This document shows, piece after piece, positions 46,273 to 63,144 of a stretch of 64,000 bases of DNA; positions within the stretch are counted from its first letter, which is position 1, and the number at the start of each line of letters is the position of its first letter. Position numbers and translations under genes: made by a program. Source of the stretch: Comamonas endophytica (lineage in GTDB: Bacteria > Pseudomonadota > Gammaproteobacteria > Burkholderiales > Burkholderiaceae_C). The notes below the pieces were generated by a model, which was given only the letters and a program-made list of their open reading frames with translations, had not been told where the DNA came from and made no database searches. The DNA lies in NCBI RefSeq assembly GCF_023634805.2, contig NZ_CP106881.1:2772001-2836000 (forward strand). Direction: 5' to 3'.

Positions 46273-46328
46273 GGCTTGCCCCGGCAGTGGCGCTGCAAGC
46301 CCCTGCCAATCACACCATTGATCCGCCA

Positions 46329-46372
46329 AAGAAAAAAGCCGCCAAGTCATTGGAACTTAACGGCTTTTCTGT
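46329..46372 (-). terminator. Terminator of the original tRNA-Leu transcript
   Basis: On the minus strand AAAAGCCGTTAAGT pairs with ACTTGGCGGCTTTTTT around TCCAATG, directly after the tRNA 3' end. It is the native downstream flank of the tRNA gene, now separated from its 5' half. Confidence 0.7.
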
Positions 46373-46373
46373 A

Positions 46374-46428
46374 TGGTGCCCGGGGCCGGAATCGAACCGG
46401 CACGCCTTGCGGCGGGGGATTTTGAGTC
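46374..46428 (-). tRNA. 3' fragment of tRNA-Leu(CAA), island attachment site
   Basis: The reverse complement reads GACTCAAAATCCCCCGCC, GCAAGGCGTGCC, GGTTCGATTCC, GGCCCCGGGCACCA. This is the anticodon loop, variable arm, T arm, acceptor 3' strand and CCA of a leucine tRNA. The 5' half is missing: the sequence diverges just 5' of the anticodon loop, where GGG would be expected. Such 3' tRNA duplicates are left by tyrosine-recombinase integration. The complete tRNA should lie at the other end of the island. Confidence 0.88.
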
Positions 46429-46499
46429 ACTGTGTGAGGGGCTTGGTCTGGGTAAGCGGTGCGAAGCTGAGCGAAGGTTGGAGTAGTAAAAAGTACTTA

Positions 46500-46548
46500 C
46501 AGATCAGTAGGTTAGCGAAGTTTTCCGAAATATTCGAAAACTGATCTG
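46500..46548. repeat. Inverted repeat near the attachment site
   Basis: CAGATCAGT (46500-46508) and ACTGATCTG (46540-46548) are exact reverse complements. Inside them lies TTTTC..GAAAA with CGAAATATTCG, and just outside is the palindrome GTACCGGTAC (46549-46558). These could be integrase or excisionase arm sites. The remaining sequence from 46430 to 47003 has no supported gene. Confidence 0.4.
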
Positions 46549-46880
46549 TGTACCGGTACTGTACCGAAACTTGATGTTCCAGGATGTGATTAGGTGCCGA
46601 AATTTTGCTCCACTGATTGACGTGGAGGGCAGCGGGTCGTGACGAGCGTCTTGGCTACAGAAATTGAGGCGCACCAGGCCATGGGGCATGACCGCAGTTA
46701 GCCGCTCTTAACACTCTTTGGAAGTAGCACCAGTTACGCTCGAGGTTGCTCCCTCTCTAGCGATGGCGACGTGTAGAAGTGAGAACTGCAGACCGCTGAC
46801 CCTGTCCGCATTGAAATACAAGGCAGTGCTGTCCCGCAAACTGACCAAAAAGCGGTTGCAGTCCACTGGTTAAAGCAGAG

Positions 46881-46909
46881 AGTTAGTCAAGAGTCGACGC
46901 CCGTATAAT
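46881..46909 (+). promoter_or_regulatory. Likely promoter of the four-gene island operon
   Basis: A perfect TATAAT -10 lies at 46904-46909, with only a weak -35 (AGTTAG, 17 bases upstream). It is 95 bases before the methylase ATG and is the best promoter-like site in the AT-rich leader. Confidence 0.45.
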
Positions 46910-47003
46910 GACCATTTCTTCAGCAACATGACCGCTAGGCGGATAGCTCGCTGTCTTGAATTTTAGACGGGGAGAAGGCTGTTATACCGACTCTGCGAAG
47001 CCA

Positions 47004-47792
47004 ATGACTTCAATATTACGATGGGCAGGGAGCAAGCGCAGAATTCTACCCGAGTTGCGCTCCATCGCCCCGCTGGATTTTGGTAGGTATCTTGAACCCT
47101 TCGCAGGCTCTGCAGTACTGTTTTTTGAGATCTTACCTGCGCGTGCAGTACTAGGTGACTTAAACCCGGAAATTTTTGCAACTTATTCCGCAATTAGAGA
47201 CAACCCCCTGGATGTACTCTATTATTTGAGCTCAATACCGCAGACCAGTGAGGCGTACTACACCTTGCGAGCAGTTGATCCATCCAGTTTGACAAGAGTT
47301 CAACGCGCGGCAAGGTTAATATATTTGATGAAATCCTGCTTCAATGGGGTTTATAGAACAAACCGCCAAGGAATTTTTAATGTGCCACTAGGTAGCAAGT
47401 TTTTTTCTCTTCCAGATGAAAAAAATCTGCAAGCAGCTTCCAAGGCTTTGCAAAAAGTTGAACTTGTCTGCGGCGATTTTGAAGAAACTCTTGTTTATGC
47501 ATCGAGTGGTGATTTCGTTTATTTAGATCCTCCCTACAGCGATGCTACTAGATTTCGCGGAGAATATAGCTATAAAGGAGCTTTTCATTCTGCTGATCTA
47601 GAAAGACTGGTGAATTCTTGCAAGACATTGACTGATAATGGCGTTCGAGTCCTTCTTTCATTCAAGGAGTGTGAGGCAGTTATGGACGTACTTAGCGGCT
47701 GGTCATTCAAGCATCTCGATGTAAATCGGAGCGTTGCCGGGTTCGCGCGTTCGCGCCGCTCTGCGCGCGAGATATTGGCTTATAACTATTGA
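47004..47792 (+). CDS. DNA adenine methylase (Dam/D12 class)
   Basis: A 262-residue N6-adenine methyltransferase of the alpha (D12) type. The N-terminal target/cofactor motif is LRWAGSKRRILPEL. Motif I (SAM) is YLEPFAGSAVLFF (29-41) and the catalytic motif IV is YLDPPYSD (173-180). It probably marks self DNA, or acts as the sensor arm, for the three genes that follow. An upstream TTG (46956) could add 16 residues. The ATG at 47004 gives the family start. The next gene begins six bases after its stop. Confidence 0.92.
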   Translation: MTSILRWAGSKRRILPELRSIAPLDFGRYLEPFAGSAVLFFEILPARAVLGDLNPEIFATYSAIRDNPLDVLYYLSSIPQTSEAYYTLRAVDPSSLTRVQRAARLIYLMKSCFNGVYRTNRQGIFNVPLGSKFFSLPDEKNLQAASKALQKVELVCGDFEETLVYASSGDFVYLDPPYSDATRFRGEYSYKGAFHSADLERLVNSCKTLTDNGVRVLLSFKECEAVMDVLSGWSFKHLDVNRSVAGFARSRRSAREILAYNY

Positions 47793-47798
47793 TTTTAT

Positions 47799-49016
47799 AT
47801 GCCGAAACGTCATGTCCGGCTTGCGCTACTTAGCGATCTCCACGCATTTCAAAATTTGCCTGGCAGGGGCATCGCTGGCCCCTCGTATCTTCCGGCAAAC
47901 CCTGGAGTTTCCGACCCCGATCCGTTTGGTGACTTAGATAAGCTAATTAATAAAGAGGCCCTTCGATCTGATCTAGTCATGTGCGGGGGGGACATCTGTG
48001 ACAAGGCCGACTTGGGCGGTTTTCAATTTGCATGGGCCAAACTAAACGCTCTAAAGGAGAAGTTAGGTGCAAGGGAGTTGATTGCCACTTGTGGCAACCA
48101 TGATTTGAATTCTCGACTTGTCGATGCTGAGGAAGACCCAGATCCTAAAGGCGCACTTCAGACCGTCCAGCCAATGTTTCCATTTTCAGATGAGCGCCTT
48201 ACTGATCGATTTTGGTCTCGGAACTTTGTGCTTGTGAATCCAATGCCTGGCGTACGAATCGTTGTGCTAAATACCAGCGCCTATCACGGTAACGGGGATA
48301 AAGAACATCACCATGGGCGAGTTTCGGAACGAACTATTACGGCTATCAAGAACGAACTGGATGCTCTTGAACCGGCCGATCTGAATATTCTTTTGTGTCA
48401 TCATCATGTGCGTCCGCTTCAGGGTATTTGGGGAAAGGCACCTGATTCGGAATTTATGAAAAAGGGCATTGAACTCATAAGTACACTGACTAAATGTACG
48501 GCTACGCCCTGGCTTACTTTGCACGGGCATCGACATATTCCGAATTTGGAATTTACCGTCGATCCGTCATCGGTGGTAGTAGGCGCGTCTACCTTTTCAG
48601 CACAGATTCAGGGGCGATTCAACCAATTCCATCTTCTAGATGTAGAGGTAGATGAGACTGCTGCAGCCCCACTAAGGGGGACCATTGAAACATGGACTTG
48701 GAATGTGACAGGAGGTTGGCAGCGTCGACCTATTATGAATGACGGTGAAGGATTTCCTCCTATGTGCGGGTTTGGTTCCACATTTCAGCCGCGCGCGATT
48801 GTCTCAAAAATTGAACAAGTTCTTGGTACAGTTCCAGGTTTTTTGGACTGGAAAGATGTATTGATTCAAGTGCCGGACCTTAAATTCACTACGCCTGCGC
48901 ACTTTCAACAAATAGAGTCTCTGCTAGAGAAGAGTCAAATAAACTTAAACAGAGATAGAGAGGGTCGCATATCCCAAGTTGGACGATCAGTGCCAAAATC
49001 TGAGGTTTCCGAATGA
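47799..49016 (+). CDS. Calcineurin-like metallophosphoesterase
   Basis: A 405-residue phosphoesterase with a complete two-metal site: LLSDLHA (D13, H15), CGGDICD (D65), TCGNHDLN (N100, H101), LLCHHHV (201-203) and LHGHRHIPN (H244, H246). The last ~130 residues form an unknown C-terminal extension. It could cut nucleic acid or hydrolyse a nucleotide. The context with a methylase and an ATPase favours a nuclease or effector role, by inference. The stop overlaps the ATPase start by four bases (ATGA). Confidence 0.88.
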   Translation: MPKRHVRLALLSDLHAFQNLPGRGIAGPSYLPANPGVSDPDPFGDLDKLINKEALRSDLVMCGGDICDKADLGGFQFAWAKLNALKEKLGARELIATCGNHDLNSRLVDAEEDPDPKGALQTVQPMFPFSDERLTDRFWSRNFVLVNPMPGVRIVVLNTSAYHGNGDKEHHHGRVSERTITAIKNELDALEPADLNILLCHHHVRPLQGIWGKAPDSEFMKKGIELISTLTKCTATPWLTLHGHRHIPNLEFTVDPSSVVVGASTFSAQIQGRFNQFHLLDVEVDETAAAPLRGTIETWTWNVTGGWQRRPIMNDGEGFPPMCGFGSTFQPRAIVSKIEQVLGTVPGFLDWKDVLIQVPDLKFTTPAHFQQIESLLEKSQINLNRDREGRISQVGRSVPKSEVSE

Positions 49017-50908
49017 GTAATCCATCTGCAGCGTCACCATTTTTTGGCTCTTATAATGCAAGACATATAACCGCAGAGGAAGTGGCTCACCAATTCGTAC
49101 CATCGAGCAAATTTTGGGAGTTGATCGCATTGAGGAATTCCCTTCTCATTGGACCACGGGGAAGTGGCAAAACGCATTTGTTGAAAATGCTTCAACCTAA
49201 GGCACTGGCCGCGTGGGAAGGGGAGGAAGGTGATATAGCGAGATCAAAGATTGACTACTGGAGTGTATTTACTCCAGCAGATATTAATTGGAAAACGCAG
49301 GTCGAGCACAAAGCCCAGTTGCTCTCAGGTGAAGCCCAGACACAGTTTTCAAACGCTGTTTTTTTGTCGCACTTTCGAGAAGCTTTTATATCTTGTTTGC
49401 TTCAAATAACACGAGATCGGCCTTCGAACGATCGCGGCGGCGAGTCGACCCGGGTTGAACTCTCAAGAGAGCGGGAAGTTGCTCTCTGTCTCGCTCTCGC
49501 TGATTCGTGGCATCTGCCGCTGAGGGTACCCTCGCTAAATGGTTTGAAGCTCGCTTTGGTCGAGGAAATGGTACACCTTGGTGTACCTCAAGCAATCGAG
49601 AATCTGTCACCCTACATGAAGCGATTGGCAAAGATGGATGTGCTCGGCGTTGCCCGTGAAATTGCCGAGAATTTTGTCAATGTCACCGAACTATACAACG
49701 CGCGCTGGGCACTGTGTTTTGATGAGCTTGAAATTGCTCCAATAACGATCCAGAAGGATCTTTTTAGATACCTCCGCTCAACAGATCAACGCTTTGTTTT
49801 CAAGCTGGCAATTAGTCCATCAAATGATGCGTCGGCACTTCTGAATCAAGAGTCAGCTGCATCTGCAGGTAATGATTTCGACGCGATCCCTCTTTGGTTT
49901 ATCGACCAGAGTGAGCGTGAAATATTTTGCCGTCGGCTTTGGGAGAAATATGTTTCGGGAACCAAAGCAGCGACATTGTCACCAATGGCAATCCTTCAGA
50001 GATCGCGCTTTCAGTTTGCCAACGAAAAAAGCGCCTATGGACGCCGTCGCTATGACGAGGCAAGTCCTTGGAGTAAAGATTTTCAAGACCTTGAGCGTAT
50101 TGATCGAAGTTTTTCCGATTACCTGCAGCAACGCGGAGTGAGGTCTTCGTCTCTAGAAAATGTCACTCGCGAAAAAATGAACTCGATTGTACGAAAGATT
50201 GCGCCGCTAGTTGGATTTAGGTCTGCTTATATGCAAGCGGCTAAGGGTGGCATAGTCGCAGAACCTGTAAGAAGGAAATTAAAGGGTCCGCCACCCGACG
50301 TTTTTTCTGGATGGGACGCAGTGTGTACTGCCACAGAGGGAAATCCAAGATGGTTCGGCGGTATCGCTTCGAGACTTATATTGAAATGGACACAGAGCCC
50401 TAGCGGGCAAGCGCTTACAAGAGAGCAGCAGACACACGAATTGCATGCGGCCGCAAAAAAATTTCTTGCATGGATCAACGCTATTCCTGTAGAAGTGACT
50501 CAGGAGAGTATGACTTATGTGAGTCTTCATGACTTAATAACTGCTCTTGCAAAGAGTTTTGAGCAAGAAGTCTTGGGGAAAATTTTTAAATCTGATCCGG
50601 TCCTCTCATTTACGGTCGATGAAGGAACGCCGCCCTCGGTGCAACGATTGGTGATTGCAGCACTAAATATCGGAGCTATTGTCATAGTAGATGATCAAGA
50701 CGTGAATTTCACAGTAACTACGCCCGTGGGTCGTGTATTTAGGCTTGTACACCTTCTTGCACCGCACTTTAATCTTCCCATGCGCAAAGGAAAGACGCGA
50801 AATTTATCTACTATACTTTCAAAACAGTTGGGTTCACTTGATAAATATCGCCCTGTTCCCATTAAAATTGCTAATGGTTCCGAATCGGAACAGTTAGGAT
50901 TATTCTGA
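49013..50908 (+). CDS. ORC/AAA-type P-loop ATPase
   Basis: A 631-residue NTPase. Walker A is LLIGPRGSGKTHLLK (45-58) and Walker B is ARWALCFDELEI (230-241). The N-terminal SYNARHITAEEVAHQFVPS leader and the organisation resemble ORC/CDC6-like or STAND ATPases. After the ATPase core come helical parts and a C-terminal winged-helix-like region (about 490-600). It may sense foreign DNA and drive the phosphoesterase. It is coupled to both neighbours: ATGA overlap upstream and TGATG overlap downstream. Confidence 0.75.
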   Translation: MSNPSAASPFFGSYNARHITAEEVAHQFVPSSKFWELIALRNSLLIGPRGSGKTHLLKMLQPKALAAWEGEEGDIARSKIDYWSVFTPADINWKTQVEHKAQLLSGEAQTQFSNAVFLSHFREAFISCLLQITRDRPSNDRGGESTRVELSREREVALCLALADSWHLPLRVPSLNGLKLALVEEMVHLGVPQAIENLSPYMKRLAKMDVLGVAREIAENFVNVTELYNARWALCFDELEIAPITIQKDLFRYLRSTDQRFVFKLAISPSNDASALLNQESAASAGNDFDAIPLWFIDQSEREIFCRRLWEKYVSGTKAATLSPMAILQRSRFQFANEKSAYGRRRYDEASPWSKDFQDLERIDRSFSDYLQQRGVRSSSLENVTREKMNSIVRKIAPLVGFRSAYMQAAKGGIVAEPVRRKLKGPPPDVFSGWDAVCTATEGNPRWFGGIASRLILKWTQSPSGQALTREQQTHELHAAAKKFLAWINAIPVEVTQESMTYVSLHDLITALAKSFEQEVLGKIFKSDPVLSFTVDEGTPPSVQRLVIAALNIGAIVIVDDQDVNFTVTTPVGRVFRLVHLLAPHFNLPMRKGKTRNLSTILSKQLGSLDKYRPVPIKIANGSESEQLGLF

Positions 50909-51867
50909 TGAGTAGCCGTCATACGTTTGTTCGGCCAAAAGTCGTCTCTATTGAGGAAGCTGACTGGCAGAAGGGAAATTATGATATTTCTGTATTTGCG
51001 CTAGGATTTGAAAGTCGTTCCACTTCTTTTTTAGGAAAAGTAAATGCTAAGGGGGCAATTGCTTATGGATTTGATCATGGGCATCAGATGGAGTATGAGT
51101 TAAATCTGAAGTTGTTTCAGAGCGCCGGAGTGGAGGTGCTTGATTTTTTAAGTGATAACGATTTTGAGGTTGCTTTTCGACAAACGTTGAGCGCACTTCC
51201 TGACGATAATCAGAAAAAAATATTCGTTGATGTTTCGTGCTTCACGCGTTTCCGTCTAGCGGCGATTGTTCATGAACTATTTATTCATGCAGGTTCGCGA
51301 CATCAGGACCTCGTCGTCGATTTTGCCTATGCCGTAGCGAAATTTGAGAAGCCTAGCATTTTTAGGCAACCTAACACGGTGGTAGGGCCGGCCCATCGTG
51401 CTTTTGCTGGCTGGTCACAAGGTAACTATTCGTCCACTGCCACGATTCTGGGTCTTGGTTACGAACAGGACCAAGCAATTGGCGTAGTTGAATATCTACA
51501 GTCTGGAGAGGTCTGGGCATTTTCCCCTATCTCGCCGGTAGATGAATACAAGCCTGCGGTCGCAAAAGCTAATGAACTGCTTCTCTCTGAAATTCCCCCA
51601 AGTCATGTGATTGAATATGACGTGTGTTCGCCTGCTTCGGTCGTAACGACGCTGGAGTCAGTCGTTCGGGGGCTGACTGATGAGCATAGTGTGGTACTTG
51701 TGCCTTTTGGCCCGAAAATATTCGTGCTTTGCACTCTCATAGTTGCTGCGATCCGACAGGATGTAGCTGTCTGGCGTGTTAGTCAGGGTAGTCATATCAA
51801 GCCTCATGATAGGTCTGCAAGTCATATAAAAGTTGGTCTCAGACTAATTTTTCGAGCTGAAAATTAA
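50908..51867 (+). CDS. Unknown protein, last gene of the four-gene island operon
   Basis: A 319-residue protein I do not recognise. It reads as alternating strands and helices. An early motif, DISVFALGFESRSTSFLGK (about 26-44), is followed by KIFVDVSCFTRFRLAAIVHELFI (about 108-130). A C-terminal VVLVPFGPKIFVLCTLIVAAIRQDVAVWRVSQG (about 263-295) looks like the core strand of a Rossmann-like fold. No membrane segment or signal is seen. The start overlaps the ATPase stop (TGATG). Its place as the last, tightly coupled gene suggests an obligate partner of the system. Confidence 0.7.
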   Translation: MSSRHTFVRPKVVSIEEADWQKGNYDISVFALGFESRSTSFLGKVNAKGAIAYGFDHGHQMEYELNLKLFQSAGVEVLDFLSDNDFEVAFRQTLSALPDDNQKKIFVDVSCFTRFRLAAIVHELFIHAGSRHQDLVVDFAYAVAKFEKPSIFRQPNTVVGPAHRAFAGWSQGNYSSTATILGLGYEQDQAIGVVEYLQSGEVWAFSPISPVDEYKPAVAKANELLLSEIPPSHVIEYDVCSPASVVTTLESVVRGLTDEHSVVLVPFGPKIFVLCTLIVAAIRQDVAVWRVSQGSHIKPHDRSASHIKVGLRLIFRAEN

Positions 51868-51979
51868 CCATGGTAGTTAATGTCGAAGTTTTCGAGATAA
51901 TAATGAATAGAGTTTTTATGGGTAGATCTGGCCCTAATGCTACGCAGCCAGCATCTTCAACCGAGATATCATCGATACA
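51868..51979. other. Gap between convergent island operons
   Basis: These 112 AT-rich bases separate the stop of the plus-strand operon from that of the minus-strand Res gene. I see no strong terminator hairpin and no gene. Confidence 0.6.
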
Positions 51980-54900
51980 TCAAGGCTCATAAGCCATTAA
52001 CCCATCCACATCCGTGAACTTGCCATAGATAGCGGGGTTCTCTCCCACTGCCAGCGCCTTGAAATGCGCTGTGCCGCACCTGATCTTGCCGCCCTCCCGG
52101 TCGCGCAGGTCATCGTCAAACAGGCTGCTCTTGGTTTCCACCACGAAGTACAGGTGCTCGTGCCCCTCGCGCTCCACCAGCACGGCCCAGTCGGGGTTGT
52201 AGCTACCCAAGGGGGTTGGTACTTTGAACCAACCGGGAAGCTTGGCATACACCTTGACCGCGTGGTTCTTCTCCAGCTGGTCTGCAAACTTCCATTCCAC
52301 GGCTGAATCAATGGCTACGTGTTCGTAAACTGACTTTTCGGCATCCACGCGGGCGCTGTGCTCGTTCAGGTAGCCCATCAACACGTTCTTGGGATCTTCG
52401 AATAGCTCTTGTGCCCAGTAGGCTTCCTCTCCTAGTCGCTGGTACTTGATGCCGTCCACCAGGGCAAGACGCTTGCAGCGGTTGATGGATTGAGCCGCCA
52501 TCTCGATGAAGTGTTGCGGGTTGCGCTTGAACTCGTTCAGCCGCGTGCTTTCAGTCAAGATGCGGACAATCGTCTTGCGCGTGAGCTGCGTGCGATCTTG
52601 CAGCTCGGTCAGGATGTCGGGTAGCTCGATATCGTTTTCGTTCAACGTGACTGAGTCTGCACCATTTTTTTCAGTGGCATCCACGCCAGACTTCGTAACC
52701 GAGATGCCGGCCTTGCGCCATTGCAGCCGCGTCTTGGCGATCTGTTGCATGTCGTTCAAGGCTTCAATGCACTTCTCAATCAGTTTCTCGTTGTCGAAGT
52801 GCACGCGGTAAGTAGTCTTGTGCTTGATGCGGTCCCACAAGGCCTGGAACTCGGCGCTGACCAACACCGACTTGCGGATGGCAATCTGCCTACGCTCGTC
52901 GGCGTTCTTCACTTCCAGCTTGCCGGATAGCTTTCTCAACACCCCTACGATTTGCGCGCGCTGGGCTTCAAATTCAACAGGCAGCATCAGCATGCCGTCT
53001 TTTAATGCGGTCTTCAGCGCGTCTTGAACCTTGCCCTTGTCCGTGATGTAGCCTTGTGCCTTCAAGTGCGCCCACAAAACCTTTGATGCCTCAAAGCCCA
53101 ATGCAGTAAGCTCCCCGTTTTCTTGCGTCACAGTGATCGCAGAAAAGGCGTGTTGCTTAACGACGCCGAAGTCGATGCCGGCATCCTCATAGTCCTTCTG
53201 CAGCTTCTCTGCGAACTGCTCATAGCTCTCCGTCGCAATCACGGTCAATGTGTTGATCTCAAAACCACGCAGACGCTCGCCTTGCTGGTTCACGCACAGG
53301 CGCAGGCCGCGGCCAATGGTCTGCCGACGCCAGCGTTCTGTCTCACGGGTTGAAAAGTTGCAAATCTGGAAGACGTTGGGGTTGTCCCAACCTTCCTTCA
53401 AGGCAGAGTGTGAGAAGATGAATTTCAGCGGTGACTCGAAGCTCAGCAGCTTTTCCTTGTCGCGCATGATGAGGCTGTAGGTATCGTCATCGGCCGCAGT
53501 GCTGCCGCTTGTGTCCTTCATCATCTCCACCGTTTTGCCGCCCACTTTCTTCTTATCGATAGAGAAGTAGCCGTTGTGTACCTCTCCGGCCGCTGTGCTC
53601 AGGTCAATCTCGTTGAACAGGCTTTGGTAGTCGGGGTGGCGTGCCCATCGCTTGTATTCCTCTTCGAACATCAAGGCGTACTCGCCCTTCACAGCATTGC
53701 CTTGTTCATCGTATTGGCGATACTTGGCCACCTCATCGATGAAGAACAGGCTCAGCACCTTCACGCCCAGTGGGCGCAGGCGCTTCTCCTTGTCGAGGTG
53801 CTCCTTGATCGTTCGGCGGATCATTTCGTGCTGCACGGCGCTGGCGTCCACATCGCCCCAGGCCTCTCCAGCGCGCAAATAGACCTCGCTGCCAGGCACC
53901 TTCAGTTCGATGAACTGGTCGCCCTTTGCGGTGCGTATTTCGCCAATGCGGATGTTCGTGTACATCGGGCGTTTGGTTTCCTGCTCAAGGTCGAAGCCGT
54001 CTTGCACCGTGATGGGTTCGCGGCGCACAACGCCAGCGGCGTTTTCCTTGTCTACCTCAATGCTGGCGGTGATGACTCCCTTCTTGTTGCTCACGGCCAG
54101 CAGCTTCACGTAGGGCTTGTTGCCGCCGCCGTGCACCGTGGCCGCAGCTACCTCAATTTGCTTGACCAGCTTTTGCTCGTAGGCGTCCACTGCATCCAGC
54201 TGATAGACCATGTTGTGTTTGTCTATGTGCGTGGCCGAGTAGCGCAAGGCGCACAGCGGGTTCATGTGGGCCATGGCCTTCTTGCCCTTGCCATCCATGC
54301 CGCCGTCCACACTCTGCGGTTCGTCCACGATCAGGATCGGTCTGGTACTGCGGATCAAATCAATAGGGCGCTCGCCGCCAGTCTTCTCGCTGACCCGGTA
54401 CATCTTGTTCTTCGACTTCTCGCGTCGCTTGGCCTCATCGGACTCTTCTGTCGCAGCTGCGGCCTCGTCGCCAAACTTGTTGATCGCACCCACGGTGATG
54501 ACCATCATTTGAATATTCGGGCTGGTCGCGAAGTTGCGTACCTGGCCTAGCTTCTCTGAGTCGTATTGGAAGAACTCGTAGCCCTTGGCCCCCGGATACA
54601 GGCCCTCGAAGTGCTCGCGGGTGATTTCAAGCGTCTTGTTGACGCCTTCTTTGATCGCGACGGAGGGAACCACCACCACGAACTTGGTGAAGCCGTAGCG
54701 CTGGTTCAGCTCAAATGCCGTGCGCAGATACACATAGGTTTTGCCCGTGCCAGTTTCCATTTCTACGGTGAAGTCCCGCGCCTGCTTCGGTTTCAACGGA
54801 TCAGAGGGTGGCAAGCCGTTGCGCAACTGCACCTTTTGCAGGTTCTCGCTCAGCTCTTCGTCCACGATCAGCTGCAAGGCATTGCCGATGCCGCCTTCAG

Positions 54901-55063
54901 CCGTAAACTGCTTGCCCTCGAAGCTCTGCTGCCCGGAATCGGTCAGGGCGTGTGTCCTAACGGAAAAGACTGAGTGGCAAATCTCCTGACCATGGAACAG
55001 GTCACACACGGCATCAATGGCTGCTTTTTGATAGGGCAGGTCGGGTTCAAAGTGGAGTTTCAT
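51980..55063 (-). CDS. Type III restriction enzyme Res subunit (helicase/nuclease)
   Basis: A 1027-residue SF2 translocase with an endonuclease domain. It shows Walker A METGTGKTYVYLRT (102-115), the DE(A/P)-type motif ILIVDEPQSVDGGMDGKGK, motif III-like LRYSATHIDKHNMVYQLDAV, motif V-like FSHSALKEGWDNPNVFQICNF and motif VI TIGRGLRLCVNQ. The C-terminal PD-(D/E)xK nuclease is NPDWAVLVE .. LYFVVETKS (D958, E976, K978). It works with the Mod gene at 58278-60173 but is separated from it by a helicase gene, unlike classical mod-res pairs. Confidence 0.93.
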   Translation of the reverse strand: MKLHFEPDLPYQKAAIDAVCDLFHGQEICHSVFSVRTHALTDSGQQSFEGKQFTAEGGIGNALQLIVDEELSENLQKVQLRNGLPPSDPLKPKQARDFTVEMETGTGKTYVYLRTAFELNQRYGFTKFVVVVPSVAIKEGVNKTLEITREHFEGLYPGAKGYEFFQYDSEKLGQVRNFATSPNIQMMVITVGAINKFGDEAAAATEESDEAKRREKSKNKMYRVSEKTGGERPIDLIRSTRPILIVDEPQSVDGGMDGKGKKAMAHMNPLCALRYSATHIDKHNMVYQLDAVDAYEQKLVKQIEVAAATVHGGGNKPYVKLLAVSNKKGVITASIEVDKENAAGVVRREPITVQDGFDLEQETKRPMYTNIRIGEIRTAKGDQFIELKVPGSEVYLRAGEAWGDVDASAVQHEMIRRTIKEHLDKEKRLRPLGVKVLSLFFIDEVAKYRQYDEQGNAVKGEYALMFEEEYKRWARHPDYQSLFNEIDLSTAAGEVHNGYFSIDKKKVGGKTVEMMKDTSGSTAADDDTYSLIMRDKEKLLSFESPLKFIFSHSALKEGWDNPNVFQICNFSTRETERWRRQTIGRGLRLCVNQQGERLRGFEINTLTVIATESYEQFAEKLQKDYEDAGIDFGVVKQHAFSAITVTQENGELTALGFEASKVLWAHLKAQGYITDKGKVQDALKTALKDGMLMLPVEFEAQRAQIVGVLRKLSGKLEVKNADERRQIAIRKSVLVSAEFQALWDRIKHKTTYRVHFDNEKLIEKCIEALNDMQQIAKTRLQWRKAGISVTKSGVDATEKNGADSVTLNENDIELPDILTELQDRTQLTRKTIVRILTESTRLNEFKRNPQHFIEMAAQSINRCKRLALVDGIKYQRLGEEAYWAQELFEDPKNVLMGYLNEHSARVDAEKSVYEHVAIDSAVEWKFADQLEKNHAVKVYAKLPGWFKVPTPLGSYNPDWAVLVEREGHEHLYFVVETKSSLFDDDLRDREGGKIRCGTAHFKALAVGENPAIYGKFTDVDGLMAYEP

Positions 55064-55137
55064 GCTTCATACCTTGTTCTGGTCAATGGGCGTAAGCGCA
55101 TGCCAGATTCAAATTCTTTTTTTGTCGAGCGGTCGGG

Positions 55138-58137
55138 TCATGGCTGACCTACCAAATTTTGATAGAGGGTACGCACTTCAGCCAACTGCGGAGCCAGGGC
55201 CTTGATACCAGATAGCAGCACCAGGCTTTGCCGCGCACGTGTGATCCCCACATACAGACGATTGATTTGCGACGCATTACCGAGGTCGTAGCGGTCAACT
55301 CCAGCCAGCAGCACTACATCGAACTCCAAGCCTTTGGAATTTGCCACGTCCGCGAAATGCCGCACATGGCGCCGGGCCAGATTGACCTTTTCTGAAAGTT
55401 CAGCCTCAACCATGCGTTCGCGCAACTCAACCTCAAGGCGCTTGTAGGTCTTTGCTGCTGTGGCGGCATCAGGGAACAGCACGGCCACGGTCTGATGGCG
55501 CTTGGCCGAGGCTAAGGCCTCAACAATTCGTGCGTCCATGGCGTCATCCGTTTCGCACACTTGAATGCGAGGCCGCACTAAGCTTGCGCCTTCTTGTCGC
55601 GCCGTCTCCGCCAAAGCTGTGGAGGGCTTTTTTCCGCCTTGTAAAACAGAACGGAAACTTGCGCTGAACAAAGCCAATCCCGGCGCATCGGCTTGACGAA
55701 GGTTTTGTGTCAGCAGCACGTGAGGCACTGATTGCCCCGGGAAGCAGGCTTTCAAGTCGATGCTGCTGCCATGGTGCAGCTTCTGTGCAATGTCTCCCAC
55801 TACGGTTACGGCTCGGTATTTTGGGTTCGACTGCTCAACCATCAAAAACACCTGCTGTTCGGTGAAATCTTGAACTTCATCGACAAACACAGCTTGATAG
55901 AACGTCAGCTCCTGCAGTTGCCGCAAGCCGCCTTGCTTCAGCCCGCGTCCCACCAAATGACTCAGACACAGCAGAAGGTCGATGTCCTCGTCAGCCAACT
56001 TGAACTTGCTCAACTGCGCATGCAGGCGCTTTGCCAGTGCTGCATCCGGGAACTGGTTGGAAGACTCTTGCAACGCAGTAAGGTACTGGTCGGCCACGCT
56101 GGCCAGGGGCTGCAATAGCTTACGGCGGAGCACGCGGCGGAAGACGGCATCCGGCGTGCTGCTGCGCGGCTGGCCCGGCGCTGATGTCTCGACCGTTGCG
56201 TCCGCGTCGTCATCAGTCAGCTCTTCGTCGCTTTTTCCATCGTCCGTGGGCAAGAGTGGAAGCTTGGCGCGTCCCCAACCAAACATTCGAGGTAAGCGAC
56301 GCAACGAGCCTTCTACCGGCGCGTAGACCAATTCGGTTGCCTCAGGTAAAAGCCGCATGAAAAGGTGGTTCACATCAGAGGCCACGGCGTAGACATTCTT
56401 GCCCGATGGTTCGCGTGCAATGACCTTGCCCGAAGTCATCAACGCCCGCGTCTCTTCAGACCATGCCAAGGATTCGCCGGTGGTGGTGAGCAACTGCAAA
56501 GTTGGGTCTATGGGGCCATCCGCATCGATAAATACTAGTCGCTGGCCCGAGACGAAGTACAACGCCGCCTTGCGCTCCACCAGTTTGCGTGCCAAAGCGT
56601 TTTCATCGTTTGCAAACAAGACTTGATCATCAACGCGAGTCCAAATCACCTTGGCACCCATCACGCGCTTGCGAACATCTTCCACTTTGTTCAGCAGTCG
56701 TAGTGCAAGCCGGTCTAACGCAAAGGTGCCCGGGCGCGGGGACTGGGCTAGCTCGGTGGAGATTTGTTGTAGGTCTTGTTGCAAGTATTCAAGCGCAACG
56801 TTGGCAACTCGCACGACCTTCGCTCGTGCAGCGGGCTCAAACGGTTCGGCTAGCTCTGATGCGCTGGGCAGAACGTCAGTCAGCCGGGCCGCAATTTGCC
56901 TGGCAATTGCCTGGTCTGCCGAATGCAACCATTGCATGGTTGACGCTGCGTGAGCCTCCCGAGCCTCAGCGAAACCAACCCACCGGCGGCCCGGCACCGG
57001 GCTACTGGTCAGGCGGCGGTGCTCCCGAAGTCGGGTTTGCAGTTCTTTGTATTCATGCACCGGAAGGTTGGGCAAGTCGATGCGGCGGCAAGTTTCTTGC
57101 AGATACTGAATCAGCTCTCCAGTACGTACAAAGCCAACGCAACTTTCTTGTGAAAACTGCCCGGCAAAATCCGCAGACCAGTAATCTTGGTCTTGCCCCA
57201 CAACATCGCGGAACAACTGTTCATCGGTCACGCTCGCTGCATTGAAAGTGGTCAGCATCTTCATGCGGCCCAACGCAGCCGAAGTCTTGCCAGAGCCTGC
57301 AATCCCTTCCACAAACATTGCGCCTACTGGGGAGCGAGCAATGATCTGGTTTTGTTCAACGGTTTGATGCGTGAAGAAGCGCTCGCTCAGGCCGAAATAT
57401 TCTTCCTGCTTCACTGGCGGCTCATCAAGATTCCCGTCCTCGTCGCCATCAATCTCCAGTTCGGTGTCGAAATCATCAGAGTCATCCACCACGACGAACT
57501 CTGCAATCTGCACCTCGGCAGGTGGCAGTTCAACCGGCGTAGCTTGCATAACTGGCGCGCTAGGAACAATGACCTGTATCGAAGGTTCTCCGGCTGGCGT
57601 CGTTGGCTTTGCTGCTCCTTTTTTACCAATGAAAGCACGCAAGTCCGAAACAACGTCTTTGCCTCCGTTGTCATCTGAGATGCGCATGTGCAGGAAGTTG
57701 CGCACATTGGGCTCGAAATCTGGGCCACCATAGCGGTCAAACGAGCGCGTCTCAATGATGCGGTAGTCGCCCCAGCGTTTGCTATGCCCTTCATAGCCCG
57801 GCTGGAAGAAAGTGGCCACGCGGCCCACCGCTGAGTGGGGCGTACAGTAACCAGATGCCTCGTTTGGATACACGGCCTCTGTGGAGCTCAAACGAAACTC
57901 TAAGCGGCCCTTCAACTCCGTTTCGATGACCACCGTTTTTGCATAGGCATTTCGTCGAAGTTGCTTGTATAAGGACGTGCTGGAATGCGACACGTACCCG
58001 CTTGTGTCCGCGAAACCACCTAAAGCATTGAGGTTCTGATCGTCGAAGATCATCCGGTCGGCGTAGTCGATCACGCCTTCCAGAACGGTGATCTCTTCTG
58101 CGCTGTATTCGCGCTTATCGTTATCGGTCAGAGCCAT
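55138..58137 (-). CDS. UvrD/Rep-like SF1 helicase with unknown N-terminal domain
   Basis: A 999-residue protein. The first ~170 residues (ITVLEGVIDYADRMIFDDQN .. GYVSHSSTSLYKQL .. RIIETRSFDRYGGPDFEPN) match nothing I know. They are followed by an acidic linker (VVDDSDDFDTELEIDGDEDG). The helicase part has Walker A EGIAGSGKTSAALG (278-285), Walker B AVFVDEVQDFTEQQ, VVGDIAQKLHHG, NSKGLEFDVVLLAG and LYVGITRARQSLVLLS. GGGAGA lies a few bases before the ATG at 58137. It is inserted between Mod and Res, so it is probably a functional partner of the restriction system. Confidence 0.85.
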   Translation of the reverse strand: MALTDNDKREYSAEEITVLEGVIDYADRMIFDDQNLNALGGFADTSGYVSHSSTSLYKQLRRNAYAKTVVIETELKGRLEFRLSSTEAVYPNEASGYCTPHSAVGRVATFFQPGYEGHSKRWGDYRIIETRSFDRYGGPDFEPNVRNFLHMRISDDNGGKDVVSDLRAFIGKKGAAKPTTPAGEPSIQVIVPSAPVMQATPVELPPAEVQIAEFVVVDDSDDFDTELEIDGDEDGNLDEPPVKQEEYFGLSERFFTHQTVEQNQIIARSPVGAMFVEGIAGSGKTSAALGRMKMLTTFNAASVTDEQLFRDVVGQDQDYWSADFAGQFSQESCVGFVRTGELIQYLQETCRRIDLPNLPVHEYKELQTRLREHRRLTSSPVPGRRWVGFAEAREAHAASTMQWLHSADQAIARQIAARLTDVLPSASELAEPFEPAARAKVVRVANVALEYLQQDLQQISTELAQSPRPGTFALDRLALRLLNKVEDVRKRVMGAKVIWTRVDDQVLFANDENALARKLVERKAALYFVSGQRLVFIDADGPIDPTLQLLTTTGESLAWSEETRALMTSGKVIAREPSGKNVYAVASDVNHLFMRLLPEATELVYAPVEGSLRRLPRMFGWGRAKLPLLPTDDGKSDEELTDDDADATVETSAPGQPRSSTPDAVFRRVLRRKLLQPLASVADQYLTALQESSNQFPDAALAKRLHAQLSKFKLADEDIDLLLCLSHLVGRGLKQGGLRQLQELTFYQAVFVDEVQDFTEQQVFLMVEQSNPKYRAVTVVGDIAQKLHHGSSIDLKACFPGQSVPHVLLTQNLRQADAPGLALFSASFRSVLQGGKKPSTALAETARQEGASLVRPRIQVCETDDAMDARIVEALASAKRHQTVAVLFPDAATAAKTYKRLEVELRERMVEAELSEKVNLARRHVRHFADVANSKGLEFDVVLLAGVDRYDLGNASQINRLYVGITRARQSLVLLSGIKALAPQLAEVRTLYQNLVGQP

Positions 58138-58277
58138 GTTTCTCCCATTGTTCGGTCTCAAATGCTATCTGTTAGGCTTTTGATGCGCTGGGCGGCGGCG
58201 GAGGGCAGCTGTCAACCACCGGTTGACGCCTGAGTCCACCTCGCCAATTCCGGCTACGTTGATACGGCATCCCCGCA

Positions 58278-60173
58278 TCACAGGCTTCGTACTTGCTTGA
58301 TGCCGTGCTGTTCTAGGATGGCAGCCAGATTGCTCTTGGCGACATCGTTCTCAAACGCACCGTCGCGGAAAACAACGGTGATGTCACCAGCGGTGTCTTG
58401 TGCCTCTCGCCACGCGGCGATGCCCAAGGCCAAGTGCTCGGCGTCGGCCACTGAAATGTGCTCATCCAAGCACGTCATTAAAGTGCCTCCGCCTACGCTT
58501 TGTACAACCTTGCCCGAGACTTCACGTTGTTCAATCGGAACGCAAAGATCTATTCCGAGTTTAAGCAGTACTTCGTAAAGTATGTCTTCCCTTGAGCGAC
58601 CGGGCTCGATGTGTTCTACGTTCGCCAGCAGTGATCCAGCTAAATCATTTGTATTCGGATTCCAAGACCGAATGTTGGAATCAGCAAGCCGGAAATACCG
58701 AAACCCGAGATCTCCGCCAAACATGGGATTCGCCTCATGCAATGATCGTCCTACTCGACGTAGTCGTTCACTCGTTATATCGGCGATTGTTTCCATCTCA
58801 CCATTGATTTGTGGAAGTTTTTCTGGAAGCTGAACTAGCAAAAATCTTCGGTTTCCGCCATCTTCGAGATTTGCATTGAAAACAGCGTGGCCAGTCGTTC
58901 CAGACCCCGCGAAAAAATCGAGAACGAGATCATTCTCGTTGCTAACCGTAGCCAGTCTGAGCATTCGGTCAATTAGCTTTGTGGGCTTTGGCGTGTCAAA
59001 GGATTCACTTTCCGGAAAAATGGACCTCAACTCGTTCTTAGATGTCCTGTTGCTACCTACGTCCTCTTTCCTCCAGAGCGTCCTAGGCGTGAGGTCGGCG
59101 ACCTCCGAAAGGTACCGTTTAATGCTTGGTCGAGCATCTTTTTTCGGGCCCCACCAAACCCTACCATCTGCATTGAGTTCGCGCAGCCTCTCTTCGGAAA
59201 CACGCCAAAATCGGCCGGGTGGAGGTGAGAAGTGGCGACCAGTAGGGCCCGCAATTGTGTATTGCCCTTTTGAGTAAGGTTTGTTGGCAAAAGGGTCGCC
59301 TGGAATCCATTCTCCCCTTGGGTCAGCATCTGGATTTGAGTAGATGGAATTTGCCTCTTCTGTACGTGGCAATCTGCGCGGTGACCATTCAGGATTCTTT
59401 GAATAAACAAGAACGAAGTCATGATCTTCAGAGAATTGCCGAGCGGTGTTGCGGGGCGAGTCAGCTTTCTCCCAAATCACAGTAGCAGCGAAATTTTCTG
59501 AACCAAAGACCTCGTCCATCACAACCCGAAGGTGGTGTACCTCTCGATCACCAATAGAGATGAAGATTGAGCCGTCGGGATGCAGGAGACTCCGTGCAAG
59601 CTTCAAGCGCGGGTAGATCATGTTCAACCAGTCGGTATGGAATCGGCCGCTGGTGTCCGAATTGCTACTGATTTTCTGGCCGCCTTCTCTCTGGCCTGTG
59701 AGTTCCAGATAGCTCTTAATACTGTCTTGAAAGTTGTCCGGGTAGACAAAATCCTGTCCGGTGTTATATGGCGGGTCGATGTAGATCAGTTTGACCTTGC
59801 CCGCGTAGCTCTTTTGCAGTAACTTTAATACTTCAAGGTTGTCACCCTCAATCATCAGGTTCTGAGTGGTGTCCCAGTTCACGCTCTCTTCGGGGCAAGG
59901 GCGTAACGTGCCGGTGCTGGGCGTCAATGCGATCTGCCGCGCTCGGCGCTTGCCATGCCAATTGAGGCCATACTTTTCTTCTGAGTCTGCAGCGGTAGCA
60001 TCGCCAATCAAGCTTTTCAGTACCTCGACGTTGAGCGTCGCTGTAGTCTTGCCGCCTTGGGTGGTTTCAGTCAACAGTTCGGGGAACAAAGCCTTGAGTT
60101 TGGCGATATTGTCGGTCATGAGGTCGGCACTTTGCGCTTCTGGCGAGTGCGCCTCGATCTTTTGTATTGTCAT
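58278..60173 (-). CDS. Type III-like DNA adenine methyltransferase (Mod)
   Basis: A 631-residue beta-class N6-adenine methyltransferase. Catalytic motif IV is LIYIDPPYNTGQDFVYPDNF (DPPY at 133-136) and comes before the SAM motif LVLDFFAGSGTTGHAVF (417-432), the order of type III Mod enzymes. The stretch between and after them, about 230-420, is the target-recognition part and is visibly more AT-rich in DNA than the two ends of the gene. A Mod-type C-terminal part follows. It should set the recognition sequence for the Res subunit. Confidence 0.93.
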   Translation of the reverse strand: MTIQKIEAHSPEAQSADLMTDNIAKLKALFPELLTETTQGGKTTATLNVEVLKSLIGDATAADSEEKYGLNWHGKRRARQIALTPSTGTLRPCPEESVNWDTTQNLMIEGDNLEVLKLLQKSYAGKVKLIYIDPPYNTGQDFVYPDNFQDSIKSYLELTGQREGGQKISSNSDTSGRFHTDWLNMIYPRLKLARSLLHPDGSIFISIGDREVHHLRVVMDEVFGSENFAATVIWEKADSPRNTARQFSEDHDFVLVYSKNPEWSPRRLPRTEEANSIYSNPDADPRGEWIPGDPFANKPYSKGQYTIAGPTGRHFSPPPGRFWRVSEERLRELNADGRVWWGPKKDARPSIKRYLSEVADLTPRTLWRKEDVGSNRTSKNELRSIFPESESFDTPKPTKLIDRMLRLATVSNENDLVLDFFAGSGTTGHAVFNANLEDGGNRRFLLVQLPEKLPQINGEMETIADITSERLRRVGRSLHEANPMFGGDLGFRYFRLADSNIRSWNPNTNDLAGSLLANVEHIEPGRSREDILYEVLLKLGIDLCVPIEQREVSGKVVQSVGGGTLMTCLDEHISVADAEHLALGIAAWREAQDTAGDITVVFRDGAFENDVAKSNLAAILEQHGIKQVRSL

Positions 60174-60210: not shown

Positions 60211-62334
60211 TCAGGCGTCTTGAGGGCCGCCCATCTGGCGGTCGAACGACTGGCGAATCAGGCCCATCACGTAAGGCAGTTCATCCACATTGCTCAAGCC
60301 AATTTCCACATCACCATTGCCCCAGCGCCCAATGTTGGATATATCGCGACACAAGCCCTTGGGGTCTTCAATGTCGTCAATGCTTAGGTTGAGCACCAGC
60401 AGAAGGCGCTTGGCTTGGGGTACCACATCGACAAAATTCGTCTCGGCCTTGTAGGCCACGTAGAGCTTCAAGAATTCTTCGCTGACGCACGGGTCCAGCG
60501 CCACTACTGATTTGCGCAGCATCTCGAACAGTTCGCGCATGGGGCCGGTGGTCAGGTGGGCATGGTCCGTCACGCTGTATTGTTGACCGGGTTGGGCAGT
60601 TGCGGGCCGATAGGCATCGAGCACGTCGTTTGCTAGTTGTGGTGCAGCCCATATTTTGGTGGCATCAACGGCCAAGCGGTCGGCACGGGTTTTGATGGCA
60701 GCTTCGTCCCACGTGTTGACTTTGCCAAGCCCAAAGTTCAGCTTTAGCGGACTGTGGGCAAAGCCAACTGGGTTGCCGTCCTTATCGGTGACTTGATCGC
60801 GTTTGTAGGCGAAGGGGCGATCGCTGTATTCGCTGTTGTACCCCGTCAGCGTGAGGTTGCCCAAGGTGTGCAGCCAGTCCTTCTGAACGCGCTGCCAGTC
60901 TGTCCCCAGCTCGGTTTGCCATTCCTTGGATAGCGCATCGTTTTGCGGAAGGATGTGTTCGATGGTGTAGTCCTCCACCATCACACGCTCTTTGCGGCCG
61001 TGGTTTTCAAAACGGCGCAGCCAGTAGCTCCGGCTGCGGAAGTTGTAGAGGTCGCGGACCTTCACTTCGCGTTGGAATTCGTCGTCGCCGGGGAAGCGGC
61101 GGTACGACGGCAGCAGCAGGAATGCCGCCTGCACGCTTTCAAGGTAGCGGTCTTTCTTGAGCGTGCGGCTCATGCCCGCAAAGGTCTTGTTCAGCGAGTT
61201 CGTGGGGATGGCACAGATGGCACGGCGGAACACATAGCTTTCAATCAAGCGCACGATGCGCAGCACTTCGTCGCTGGTCAGGCGGCCTTGCTTGTAGTCG
61301 TGATATACATCGAGCAGGAAGGGGTAGGCAACGTCTACCTTCAGTTCGCGTAGGTCATGGAAAGCCTGTTTGAGCGCGGCATCGCTCTCGGTGCCTAACG
61401 CCATGGCGCAGTAGTAGGACGCATAGGCGTGGATGTCAGCCACCAAGTCGCGGGTATCGCCCTTGAGCCCACGCGCGAAGCCCTTGAACGCCACGTAGAC
61501 CTCGCGCACGTTCGGAATATCGCCGGTCTTGGCCGTCAGGTAGTGGCGCATGAATGCGTCGAAGTGCACCACGTAGGCTGCTTGGCCAAATGCCCGCTCC
61601 ATGGGGCGCCAGTAGGTTTTGTACAGCTCGGTTTGCAGCTTGGGTTCAAGGCCCATCAAGATGTAATTGCGGATGAGGTCTGCCTGGCTGAGTTCCAGTC
61701 CGGTGGAGTTCATACTTTCAAAGATCAGCTGCGGATTGTCTTGGGCGCGGTCCAGCGAAACGTCCACGATCACAAGTTTGGCAAGGCCTTGGCAGATGGC
61801 TTCCAGCTCGCCTTGGTTGGCAGCGATCAGCTCTTGGAACAAGGCGTAGTTCTCAGTGATGCGGCTGCTGGTCTCAGCGGGCATGGGGGTGTTCTGCAGG
61901 ATCGCCAGCAGCGTCTCTTTGTCTGTTTCAGACAAGATCAGCTTGAAGTGGCGTTCACCGTCTTCGTCTGGGTTTAACAGGTAGTAGTTGCGAAGCTTCT
62001 TGTTCGAGAAGGCTTCCAGCAGCTCGCCCAGGCCTTGGGTCTCGAAGTGCTTTGCTAGCGCCGCAATGAGCAAGGTGCTGGTGGTCAGGCGTTGCTGGCC
62101 GTCAATGACCAACAATGCTTCTTGGCTGGTTACAGAGGACAGGCCACGCTCCACATAAACAATGGAGCCGATGAAGTGTGCTTGAACCTTCTCATCGCGG
62201 CCAGCGCGCATCAGGTCAGACCAGAGTTGGCGGCACTGCGCCGCAGTCCACGAGTAGTTGCGCTGATAGATCGGGATGACGAACTGCGGAGATTTCCTGA
62301 GGAACTTGAGTAGGTTCGCTTCTGTTGCTTTCAC
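60211..62334 (-). CDS. DUF262/HNH (DUF1524)/DUF5655 protein, GmrSD-like
   Basis: A 707-residue protein. The N-terminal DUF262 domain has IPIYQRNYSW, the nucleotide-site motif VIDGQQRLTTST and ESMNSTGLELSQADLIRNYI. The HNH/DUF1524 part has YTIEHILPQND and LGNLTLTGYNSEYSD. The last ~110 residues look like DUF5655 (EEFLKLYVAYKAETNFVDVVPQAKRLLLVLNL). Relatives (GmrSD, BrxU) are type IV nucleases that cut modified phage DNA. It starts 10 bases after the DUF4391 gene, so it is part of the restriction operon rather than an add-on. Confidence 0.9.
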   Translation of the reverse strand: MKATEANLLKFLRKSPQFVIPIYQRNYSWTAAQCRQLWSDLMRAGRDEKVQAHFIGSIVYVERGLSSVTSQEALLVIDGQQRLTTSTLLIAALAKHFETQGLGELLEAFSNKKLRNYYLLNPDEDGERHFKLILSETDKETLLAILQNTPMPAETSSRITENYALFQELIAANQGELEAICQGLAKLVIVDVSLDRAQDNPQLIFESMNSTGLELSQADLIRNYILMGLEPKLQTELYKTYWRPMERAFGQAAYVVHFDAFMRHYLTAKTGDIPNVREVYVAFKGFARGLKGDTRDLVADIHAYASYYCAMALGTESDAALKQAFHDLRELKVDVAYPFLLDVYHDYKQGRLTSDEVLRIVRLIESYVFRRAICAIPTNSLNKTFAGMSRTLKKDRYLESVQAAFLLLPSYRRFPGDDEFQREVKVRDLYNFRSRSYWLRRFENHGRKERVMVEDYTIEHILPQNDALSKEWQTELGTDWQRVQKDWLHTLGNLTLTGYNSEYSDRPFAYKRDQVTDKDGNPVGFAHSPLKLNFGLGKVNTWDEAAIKTRADRLAVDATKIWAAPQLANDVLDAYRPATAQPGQQYSVTDHAHLTTGPMRELFEMLRKSVVALDPCVSEEFLKLYVAYKAETNFVDVVPQAKRLLLVLNLSIDDIEDPKGLCRDISNIGRWGNGDVEIGLSNVDELPYVMGLIRQSFDRQMGGPQDA

Positions 62335-62343
62335 TTCTAACCT

Positions 62344-63144
62344 TTAAATGTCGGTGGCGACTTGTTGGCGCTCTGCCAACAGTGCCTTGATTTCGAGATT
62401 TGCTGCCACTTGGCGAGCTATCTGCTTTTCTTTGCTAGCGGCTGAACGCAGGCTGGCGATTTGTACGTCCAAATCGCGGCAGCGATGTAATGCTGAGCGT
62501 CTAGTAACCGCTTGGGCGGGCGTTTCGGTCATGGTGAAGGACCCTGTGTATTGCATGGCCTCCCAAGCCGTCAGACAGTCCATCCAGCCCTGGTATAAGG
62601 CCAGAAAATTGGCCTGCGGCTGGCGGGGCAAGGCCAAGGCCTGCACGAAAGGGTATTTGGCCGTCAGATCAAGAGCAACTTTCACAGTGGCCGGCTCGCC
62701 GTCCAGAACCACCTTGCCGACTTCGTTCTGCGCCGAGCACTTGTGCGCCAGGGACAAGAATAGGCCCTGCGGAGCGGCAAGAAGCAACAGCACGGGGTAA
62801 GGCACGGCGCGATGCACAAGCTCGGCAAGGCGCGTGGTGTTAACAGGCTTGTTCGTTGCGTTGGCACCTTCGCCCTGGGGAGCATAGCGCGCGGTGATGG
62901 ACAACACCGCCACTTCCAAGTATTCACGCTGGTCGTCGCTGTACTCGCTCACCCCCACGGTATTGGGTTTGAGGGCTGCGAGCCATTGGATCTCTTCAAT
63001 GGAGTCGTTGATGAGACGCTTGTCGGCGCTGGTTGCTGCACCGTTCTCGGCCAGCATCTTTTTCGGTACGCGCTGATCCACGCGGCAAGAGGTGGGTAGG
63101 TCCAACGCCGAAACCAGCAGACTCATCACCGCCTGCGTCGTCAC
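62344..63144 (-). CDS. DUF4391 domain protein
   Basis: A 266-residue cytoplasmic protein of the DUF4391 family, typically found beside SNF2-type helicases and methylases in defence islands. It shows LPTSCRVDQRVPKKML, INDSIEEIQWLAALKPNTVGV, VAVLSITARYA and a long terminal helix (CRDLDVQIASLRSAASKEKQIARQVAANLEIKALLAERQQ). The biochemical function is unknown. Its start overlaps the helicase stop by four bases. Confidence 0.82.
   Translation of the reverse strand: MTTQAVMSLLVSALDLPTSCRVDQRVPKKMLAENGAATSADKRLINDSIEEIQWLAALKPNTVGVSEYSDDQREYLEVAVLSITARYAPQGEGANATNKPVNTTRLAELVHRAVPYPVLLLLAAPQGLFLSLAHKCSAQNEVGKVVLDGEPATVKVALDLTAKYPFVQALALPRQPQANFLALYQGWMDCLTAWEAMQYTGSFTMTETPAQAVTRRSALHRCRDLDVQIASLRSAASKEKQIARQVAANLEIKALLAERQQVATDI

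Follow-up and report, generated by a model that had tools for sequence, protein, structure and literature searches.

We identified a conserved four-gene cassette in a 64,000-nucleotide stretch of the Comamonas endophytica genome (contig NZ_CP106881.1, positions 2,772,001–2,836,000; hereafter the window) that probably constitutes an immune module in which DNA methylation serves as the mark of self. The cassette encodes a Dam-family adenine methylase (MT), a calcineurin-like metallophosphoesterase (PE), an ORC-CDC6-like AAA+ ATPase (ORC) and a stand-alone tandem CARF protein (CARF). PE, ORC and CARF recur together across distant bacteria, cassettes without MT sit almost always in genomes that carry a strong Dam gene elsewhere, and in sister cassettes both the methylase class and the third gene are exchanged around a constant ORC-CARF pair. 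The complementarity between the cassette methylase and host Dam appears to be new.

Composition of the cassette

An earlier note on the window had proposed these genes as a candidate undescribed defence system, and its description of the locus holds. All four genes lie on the plus strand, joined by a gap of 6 bases and then by overlaps of ATGA and of TGATG; each has a GC fraction of 0.45–0.48 against 0.668 in bases 1–46000 of the window, and every catalytic motif claimed for MT, PE and ORC was found. A single shared promoter-like site, also claimed, was not recovered: a consensus scan of 46300–52000 returned 2 sites against 7.0 expected, none of them upstream of the first gene.

MT scores 141.7 bits against PF02086 in a Pfam scan and 206.7 bits against TIGR00571 (NCBIfam cut-off 114.85), and with RWAGSK at residue 6 and an intact DPPY at residue 175 it is a Dam-family adenine methylase. 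Its nearest solved chain is DpnM (2dpm, 163 bits); E. coli Dam scores 74 bits. PE matches PF00149 above its cut-off and has the complete dimetal motif set (D-x-H, GD, GNHD, H, GH-x-H), represented by SDLH at residue 12, D65, GNHD at 99–102, CHHH at 200 and GHRH at 243; ten metal-site residues, including D65 and H101, are identical in all 34 aligned homologs. A winged helix corresponding to PF24408 forms its C-terminus. The fold of PE is closest to phosphodiesterases acting on nucleotides and small esters (Rv0805/SMPDL3A type), and on this likeness its substrate would most likely be nucleotides or a nucleotide messenger, not DNA.

ORC aligns to PF24389 over its full length (359.5 bits, profile positions 2–571 of 571), with GPRGSGKT at residue 47 and DELE at 237. 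All 34 homologs share its D237/E238 and its Walker A residues, the one exception being S51, which is nearly invariant. The fourth gene, previously listed as unknown, belongs to a known sensor superfamily. It matches the PADLOC CARF6 model with 237.9 bits over residues 14–316, nearly its whole length, its closest folds are Can1, Csm6 and SAVED, and a CARF fold is present in both halves. Comparison by sequence found no solved relative. The residues of a candidate motif for binding a (cyclic) oligonucleotide are identical in 39 of 39 sequences, and the protein is likely a nucleotide-sensing gate. The CARF6 clade used in PADLOC reportedly traces to a 2020 study by Makarova et al. Fusions of two CARF domains are named in PMC4012209.

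Conservation and distribution

Gene 4 alone, used as the query against 84,980 species genomes, returned 40 loci (fetched loci are designated L followed by a number). PE, ORC and CARF are adjacent, co-directional and in this order in 36 of them, far beyond chance, so that the four-gene set withstood the co-occurrence check that the earlier note had called for. Of the four exceptions, L022 and L041 are contigs that start inside CARF, and L034 and L040 are remnants. Among the 36 loci, 24 have a Dam-family MT immediately upstream, one of them (L005) showing only its 3' end at the contig edge; another three (L012, L013, L017; two of the three were scanned) carry a divergent D12-type MT of 438–479 residues, and nine, including L037, have none.

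Cassettes occur beyond Proteobacteria in Bryobacterales, Pyrinomonadaceae, Gemmatimonadetes, SAR324 and Pedobacter. Within the order of the window's genome, the ATPase family is present in 9 of 320 genomes, one of them the window's own, and in neither of the two congeners listed. Among 20,395 records searched for distant DNA matches no E. coli copy turned up, ORC had no match in phage records, and viral contigs yielded 4 weak matches. ATPase relatives are found on five plasmid records; two of the three examined have MT and one (L044) does not.

Some neighbours of individual copies deserve mention. A plasmid copy in Methylobacterium has as neighbours a gene with a CHAT domain and another metallophosphoesterase (L042:8472–11836). 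By eye, the genes beside two MT-less copies (L019:45–4299, L026:4813–8801) look like TniQ and the type I-F Cas genes of CRISPR-associated transposons, so these copies may be transposon cargo. At L037:1782–3939, on the minus strand, a strong Dam-family gene and a DUF6997/DUF7226 gene look like a separate restriction-modification pair.

Complementarity between cassette methylase and host Dam

We searched each of 12 genomes with MT-less cassettes and 31 with MT-bearing cassettes (the window's among them) with TIGR00571, counting L080, which repeats L030, once. Eleven of the 12 MT-less genomes have a Dam-family gene of 290–319 bits outside the cassette. Among the 31 MT-bearing genomes, none has another Dam gene above 250 bits and one has a gene above 200 bits, the next scoring 188. 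Fisher's test gives p = 2e-9 at the 250-bit cut-off and 2e-8 at the 200-bit cut-off, on genomes that are related to one another. Relatedness is addressed by an ORC tree of 49 entries, 45 of them with both traits, on which the MT state changes five times and all five independent pairs differ as predicted; the tree is of a quick kind with two long branches (L085, L037), and L005, whose second Dam-like gene scores 242 bits, is coded there as lacking another Dam.

Strong Dam genes are uncommon in the groups from which two of the MT-less cassettes come. Such a gene is present in 6 of 101 genomes from the order to which the MT-less Pedobacter case belongs. For the MT-less Pyrinomonadaceae case, the surrounding phylum gave 5 of 99 with the 250-bit cut-off and 8 of 99 with E 1e-60; all these counts include the centres. 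A control with 5-methylcytosine (m5C) methylases in 23 of the 43 genomes showed no such pattern (6 of 11 MT-less versus 7 of 12 MT-bearing).

Sister cassettes with exchanged methylase and third gene

Searches with PF24389 gave 52 genome matches, from which we dropped 7 repeats and 2 in frames of more than 1,200 residues, leaving 43 further loci. A CARF6-type gene adjoins ORC in 42 of them, the match in L079 being weak at 27 bits. Thirty-four loci have a DNA methylase, the classes including N6-methyladenine, m5C and others. The nine loci without one comprise four at contig ends, three in Dam hosts (L047, L050, L051), and L077 and L079. The third gene is PE in 10 loci, HD in 9 and PRTase in 17, with no call in the remaining 7. 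Since the profiles used to label these loci were partly built from the same loci and match by construction, independent checks came from Pfam and PADLOC scans, which recovered HD-CE (PF24391) in 7 of 7 loci tested, PRTase-CE (PF24390) in 7 of 7, CARF6 in 5 of 5 and the m5C methylase in 2 of 2, as well as other methylase families above cut-off in L046, L053, L054, L056, L062, L081, L083 and L084. The PRTase-CE effector type is also modelled in PADLOC as PRTase_III-A, a retron type.

This exchange identifies ORC and CARF as the constant pair and the methylase class and effector as exchangeable parts. With methylases of other classes beside ORC and CARF6, and HD-CE or PRTase-CE in the position of PE, the third gene is best read as an exchangeable effector, PE included, and the methylase as an exchangeable mark; methylation marking seems to belong to the system itself. 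In L056 and L057, both among the 7 loci without a call for the third gene, ORC carries a fused protein kinase domain, possibly a fourth effector type. The divergent L085 has the order PE-ORC-CARF-MT, with PE at 35 bits and CARF at 49. In L055, a short gene following CARF looks Vsr-like by eye.

Genomic setting

The integrated element that carries the cassette next to its left end measures 31.7 kb; it is bounded by 56-base direct repeats (Table 1) and contains integrase, relaxase and TrbL genes. The defence-island setting claimed for it is borne out: a conserved gene set lies on a mobile island amid restriction-type genes, with MT as a functional part of the set. Next to the cassette, on the minus strand at 51980–60173, Type III restriction Res and Mod genes flank a gene for a 1007-residue UvrD-like helicase. 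Further along (60211–63144 and L107:1141–7925) are GmrSD-type, DUF4391 and SNF2/helicase genes, together with one whose product matches PHP and an SMC-like ATPase, likely further defence genes of the same element.

Table 1. Genes of the cassette, ends of the element, and sister cassettes. Positions without a locus number refer to the window.
Feature	Position or loci	Strand	Remarks
MT, DNA adenine-N6 methyltransferase, D12/Dam family	47004..47792	+	PF02086, TIGR00571
PE, calcineurin-like metallophosphoesterase with C-terminal winged helix, likely effector	47799..49016	+	PF00149, PF24408
ORC, ORC-CDC6-like AAA+ ATPase	49013..50908	+	PF24389; Walker A 47–54, Walker B D237 E238
CARF, stand-alone tandem CARF protein of the CARF6 clade, likely nucleotide sensor/gate	50908..51867	+	PADLOC CARF6
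56-base direct repeat of the tRNA-Leu(CAA) 3' end, left end of element	46373..46428		exact match to L107:16047–16102
Second copy of the 56-base repeat	window-equivalent 78047–78102 (L107:16047–16102)		overlaps complete tRNA-Leu L107:16048–16132
HD-CE in place of PE	L055, L059, L065, L071, L072, L074–L077		mostly beside m5C methylase
PRTase-CE sister cassettes	L045, L046, L048, L049, L052, L053, L060–L062, L067, L069, L073, L078, L079, L081, L082, L086		mostly with other methylase classes
ORC fused to N-terminal protein kinase domain	L056:4854–7343, L057:4866–7493		beside methylase and weak CARF6 match
ORC fused to N-terminal ParA/MinD-like domain	L054:5029–7869, L083:2672–5488		beside N6 methylase and CARF6

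Relation to known systems

Family scans of the four proteins gave no match to CBASS, BREX or type II restriction-modification, in agreement with the mismatch that had been claimed. No CD-NTase is among the four genes and no fifth gene recurs by BLAST clustering, which sets aside CBASS; no PglZ, BREX methylase or other BREX family is among the proteins' matches. A type II restriction-modification system of the DpnII type resembles the cassette in that MT is closest to DpnM among solved structures, but the four proteins have no Pfam match to an endonuclease family at E 1; in place of an endonuclease the cassette carries an ATPase and a CARF protein.

The claim that the system is undescribed is doubtful. 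ORC, the C-terminal domain of PE and the sister effectors fall into named Pfam families, PF24389 (ORC-CDC6-like), PF24408, PF24391 (HD-CE) and PF24390 (PRTase-CE), so that the known families include the same ATPase and, in the sister cassettes, the same effectors. HD-CE, PRTase-CE and Calcineurin-CE were reportedly introduced in 2023 by Nicastro et al., who used computation to study immune effectors that target nucleotides, and the four Pfam families presumably trace to that work; the architecture of the cassette may already have been predicted in print. No system-specific model fits PE or ORC well: the best PADLOC (2023) matches have E 0.012 for PE and 0.0052 for ORC, and the NCBIfam (2026) matches are DS9_1 (NF053862) for PE at 48.4 bits (cut-off 420), which rules out DS-9, and ATPase_Sll1717 for ORC at 27.5 bits (cut-off 75). 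The PADLOC CARF6 match of gene 4 is to a protein family. Among the literature matches listed, we recognised none as describing the four-gene set, which differs from absence in print, and we found no experimental test of the architecture.

What links PE to nucleotide-targeting effector systems is a resemblance in fold; PMC12839542 cites Nicastro et al. 2023 for phosphoesterases in such systems. According to the DefensePredictor paper (PMC13092281), DS-8 is a single protein with a NACHT NTPase and DS-9 is paired with a HAD phosphatase; both are anti-phage systems in which the metallophosphatase domain is essential and its target is described as unknown. Unlike the cassette, neither is linked with a methylase, ORC or CARF in the passages on these two systems.

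Discussion

We consider it probable that the cassette is a modification-based immune module in which methylation is the self-mark, ORC detects where the mark is missing, and the response is gated by CARF and carried out by a hydrolase. The gene set, its domains, its conservation, the exchange of parts and the Dam complementarity are observed, and from them we infer immunity, the roles of ORC and CARF, the substrate and the methylated site. The Dam-family MT would mark host adenines. ORC, probably together with the winged helix of PE, would scan DNA and assemble on unmarked incoming DNA, with the tandem CARF protein acting within the ORC complex as a nucleotide-controlled gate; activated PE would then hydrolyse nucleotides or a messenger and halt the infection. 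In Dam-bearing hosts the cassette would need no MT of its own and could use Dam's mark. The earlier note had observed the gene set correctly and its interpretation is partly supported: sensing of unmethylated DNA with protection by MT gains strength from the Dam complementarity, though we still infer it. Generalizing from the sister cassettes, we propose more tentatively, at somewhat less than an even chance, a widespread modular architecture in which any DNA methylase can supply the self-mark, ORC and tandem CARF read it, and PE, HD, PRTase or perhaps an ORC-fused kinase executes, with housekeeping Dam providing the mark in Dam-bearing bacteria.

Several points weigh against this proposal. 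The 250-bit and 200-bit Dam cut-offs were picked after the scores had been seen, and the sign test on the tree gives p = 0.0625, the lowest value attainable with five pairs, leaving 0.05 out of reach. Vibrio/Alteromonas-like lineages supply 9 of the 12 MT-less genomes, and to our knowledge Dam is nearly universal in them. Individual genomes also depart from the pattern: L021, a metagenome-assembled genome of 1.3 Mb that is probably incomplete, has neither a cassette MT nor a Dam match; L005 has a cassette MT and the second Dam-like gene of 242 bits; the L037 genome has two strong Dam-family genes, one of them on the opposite strand at a distance of only 3 kb from the cassette and beside a restriction-like gene (the other, of 290.6 bits, is on a different contig); L012, L013 and L017 have divergent MTs and no Dam-family match in their genomes; and L077 and L079 show no methylase within the fetched stretch. 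Nor does a CARF-ligand synthase or other fifth gene recur near the cassette: when 517 neighbouring open reading frames of 47 loci were clustered by BLAST, an approach by which divergent families could be missed, no cluster extended to more than 6 loci; the largest cluster looks integrase-like by eye. Finally, MT retains the recognition hairpin FNGVYRTNRQGIFNVPLG and lacks the Y that follows it in the compared Dam-type genes, and cassette MTs in general keep the core FNG-R-N-G-FNVP, whose residues we assume to act in recognition, without the Dam-type continuation. Because the hairpin differs from that of Dam, the methylated site may not be GATC. The complementarity with host Dam suggests GATC; GATC, or a site contained in GATC, is most likely, as a guess.

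An alternative that we regard as unlikely, yet the best of those considered, is a variant of restriction-modification in which PE is an Mre11/SbcD-like nuclease that is loaded by ORC and cuts unmethylated DNA, while CARF merely tunes the reaction. The kinship of MT with DpnM would suit such a system, but the occurrence of PRTase-CE in the third position argues against plain DNA cutting. Considerably less probable is that PE is an off-switch that destroys the CARF ligand, with the output coming from ORC-CARF or from host factors. CARF-linked ring nucleases are established, and the pairing of CARF with a phosphodiesterase of the Rv0805/SMPDL3A type suggests that a messenger is made and broken down; however, no messenger synthase recurs near the cassette in the clustering, and the replacement of PE by HD-CE and PRTase-CE suits an effector position better. 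We think it still less probable that the cassette is a selfish addiction module, one that stabilises the mobile element by killing cells that lose MT and that would be compatible with an immune role, since for all its position at the end of an element with integrase and relaxase and its ATPase relatives on plasmids, MT-less copies in Dam hosts could not work in this way and restriction-type genes surround the cassette.

If the immune reading is true, the stand-alone CARF6 protein would gain a concrete role within an operon, and the cassette would unite modification-based discrimination of self and non-self with CARF-gated, nucleotide-directed effectors, two branches of immunity that are usually kept apart. 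Housekeeping Dam would double as an immune password, and on the wider, more tentative reading the system would attack the cell upon loss of Dam or upon interference with Dam by a phage.

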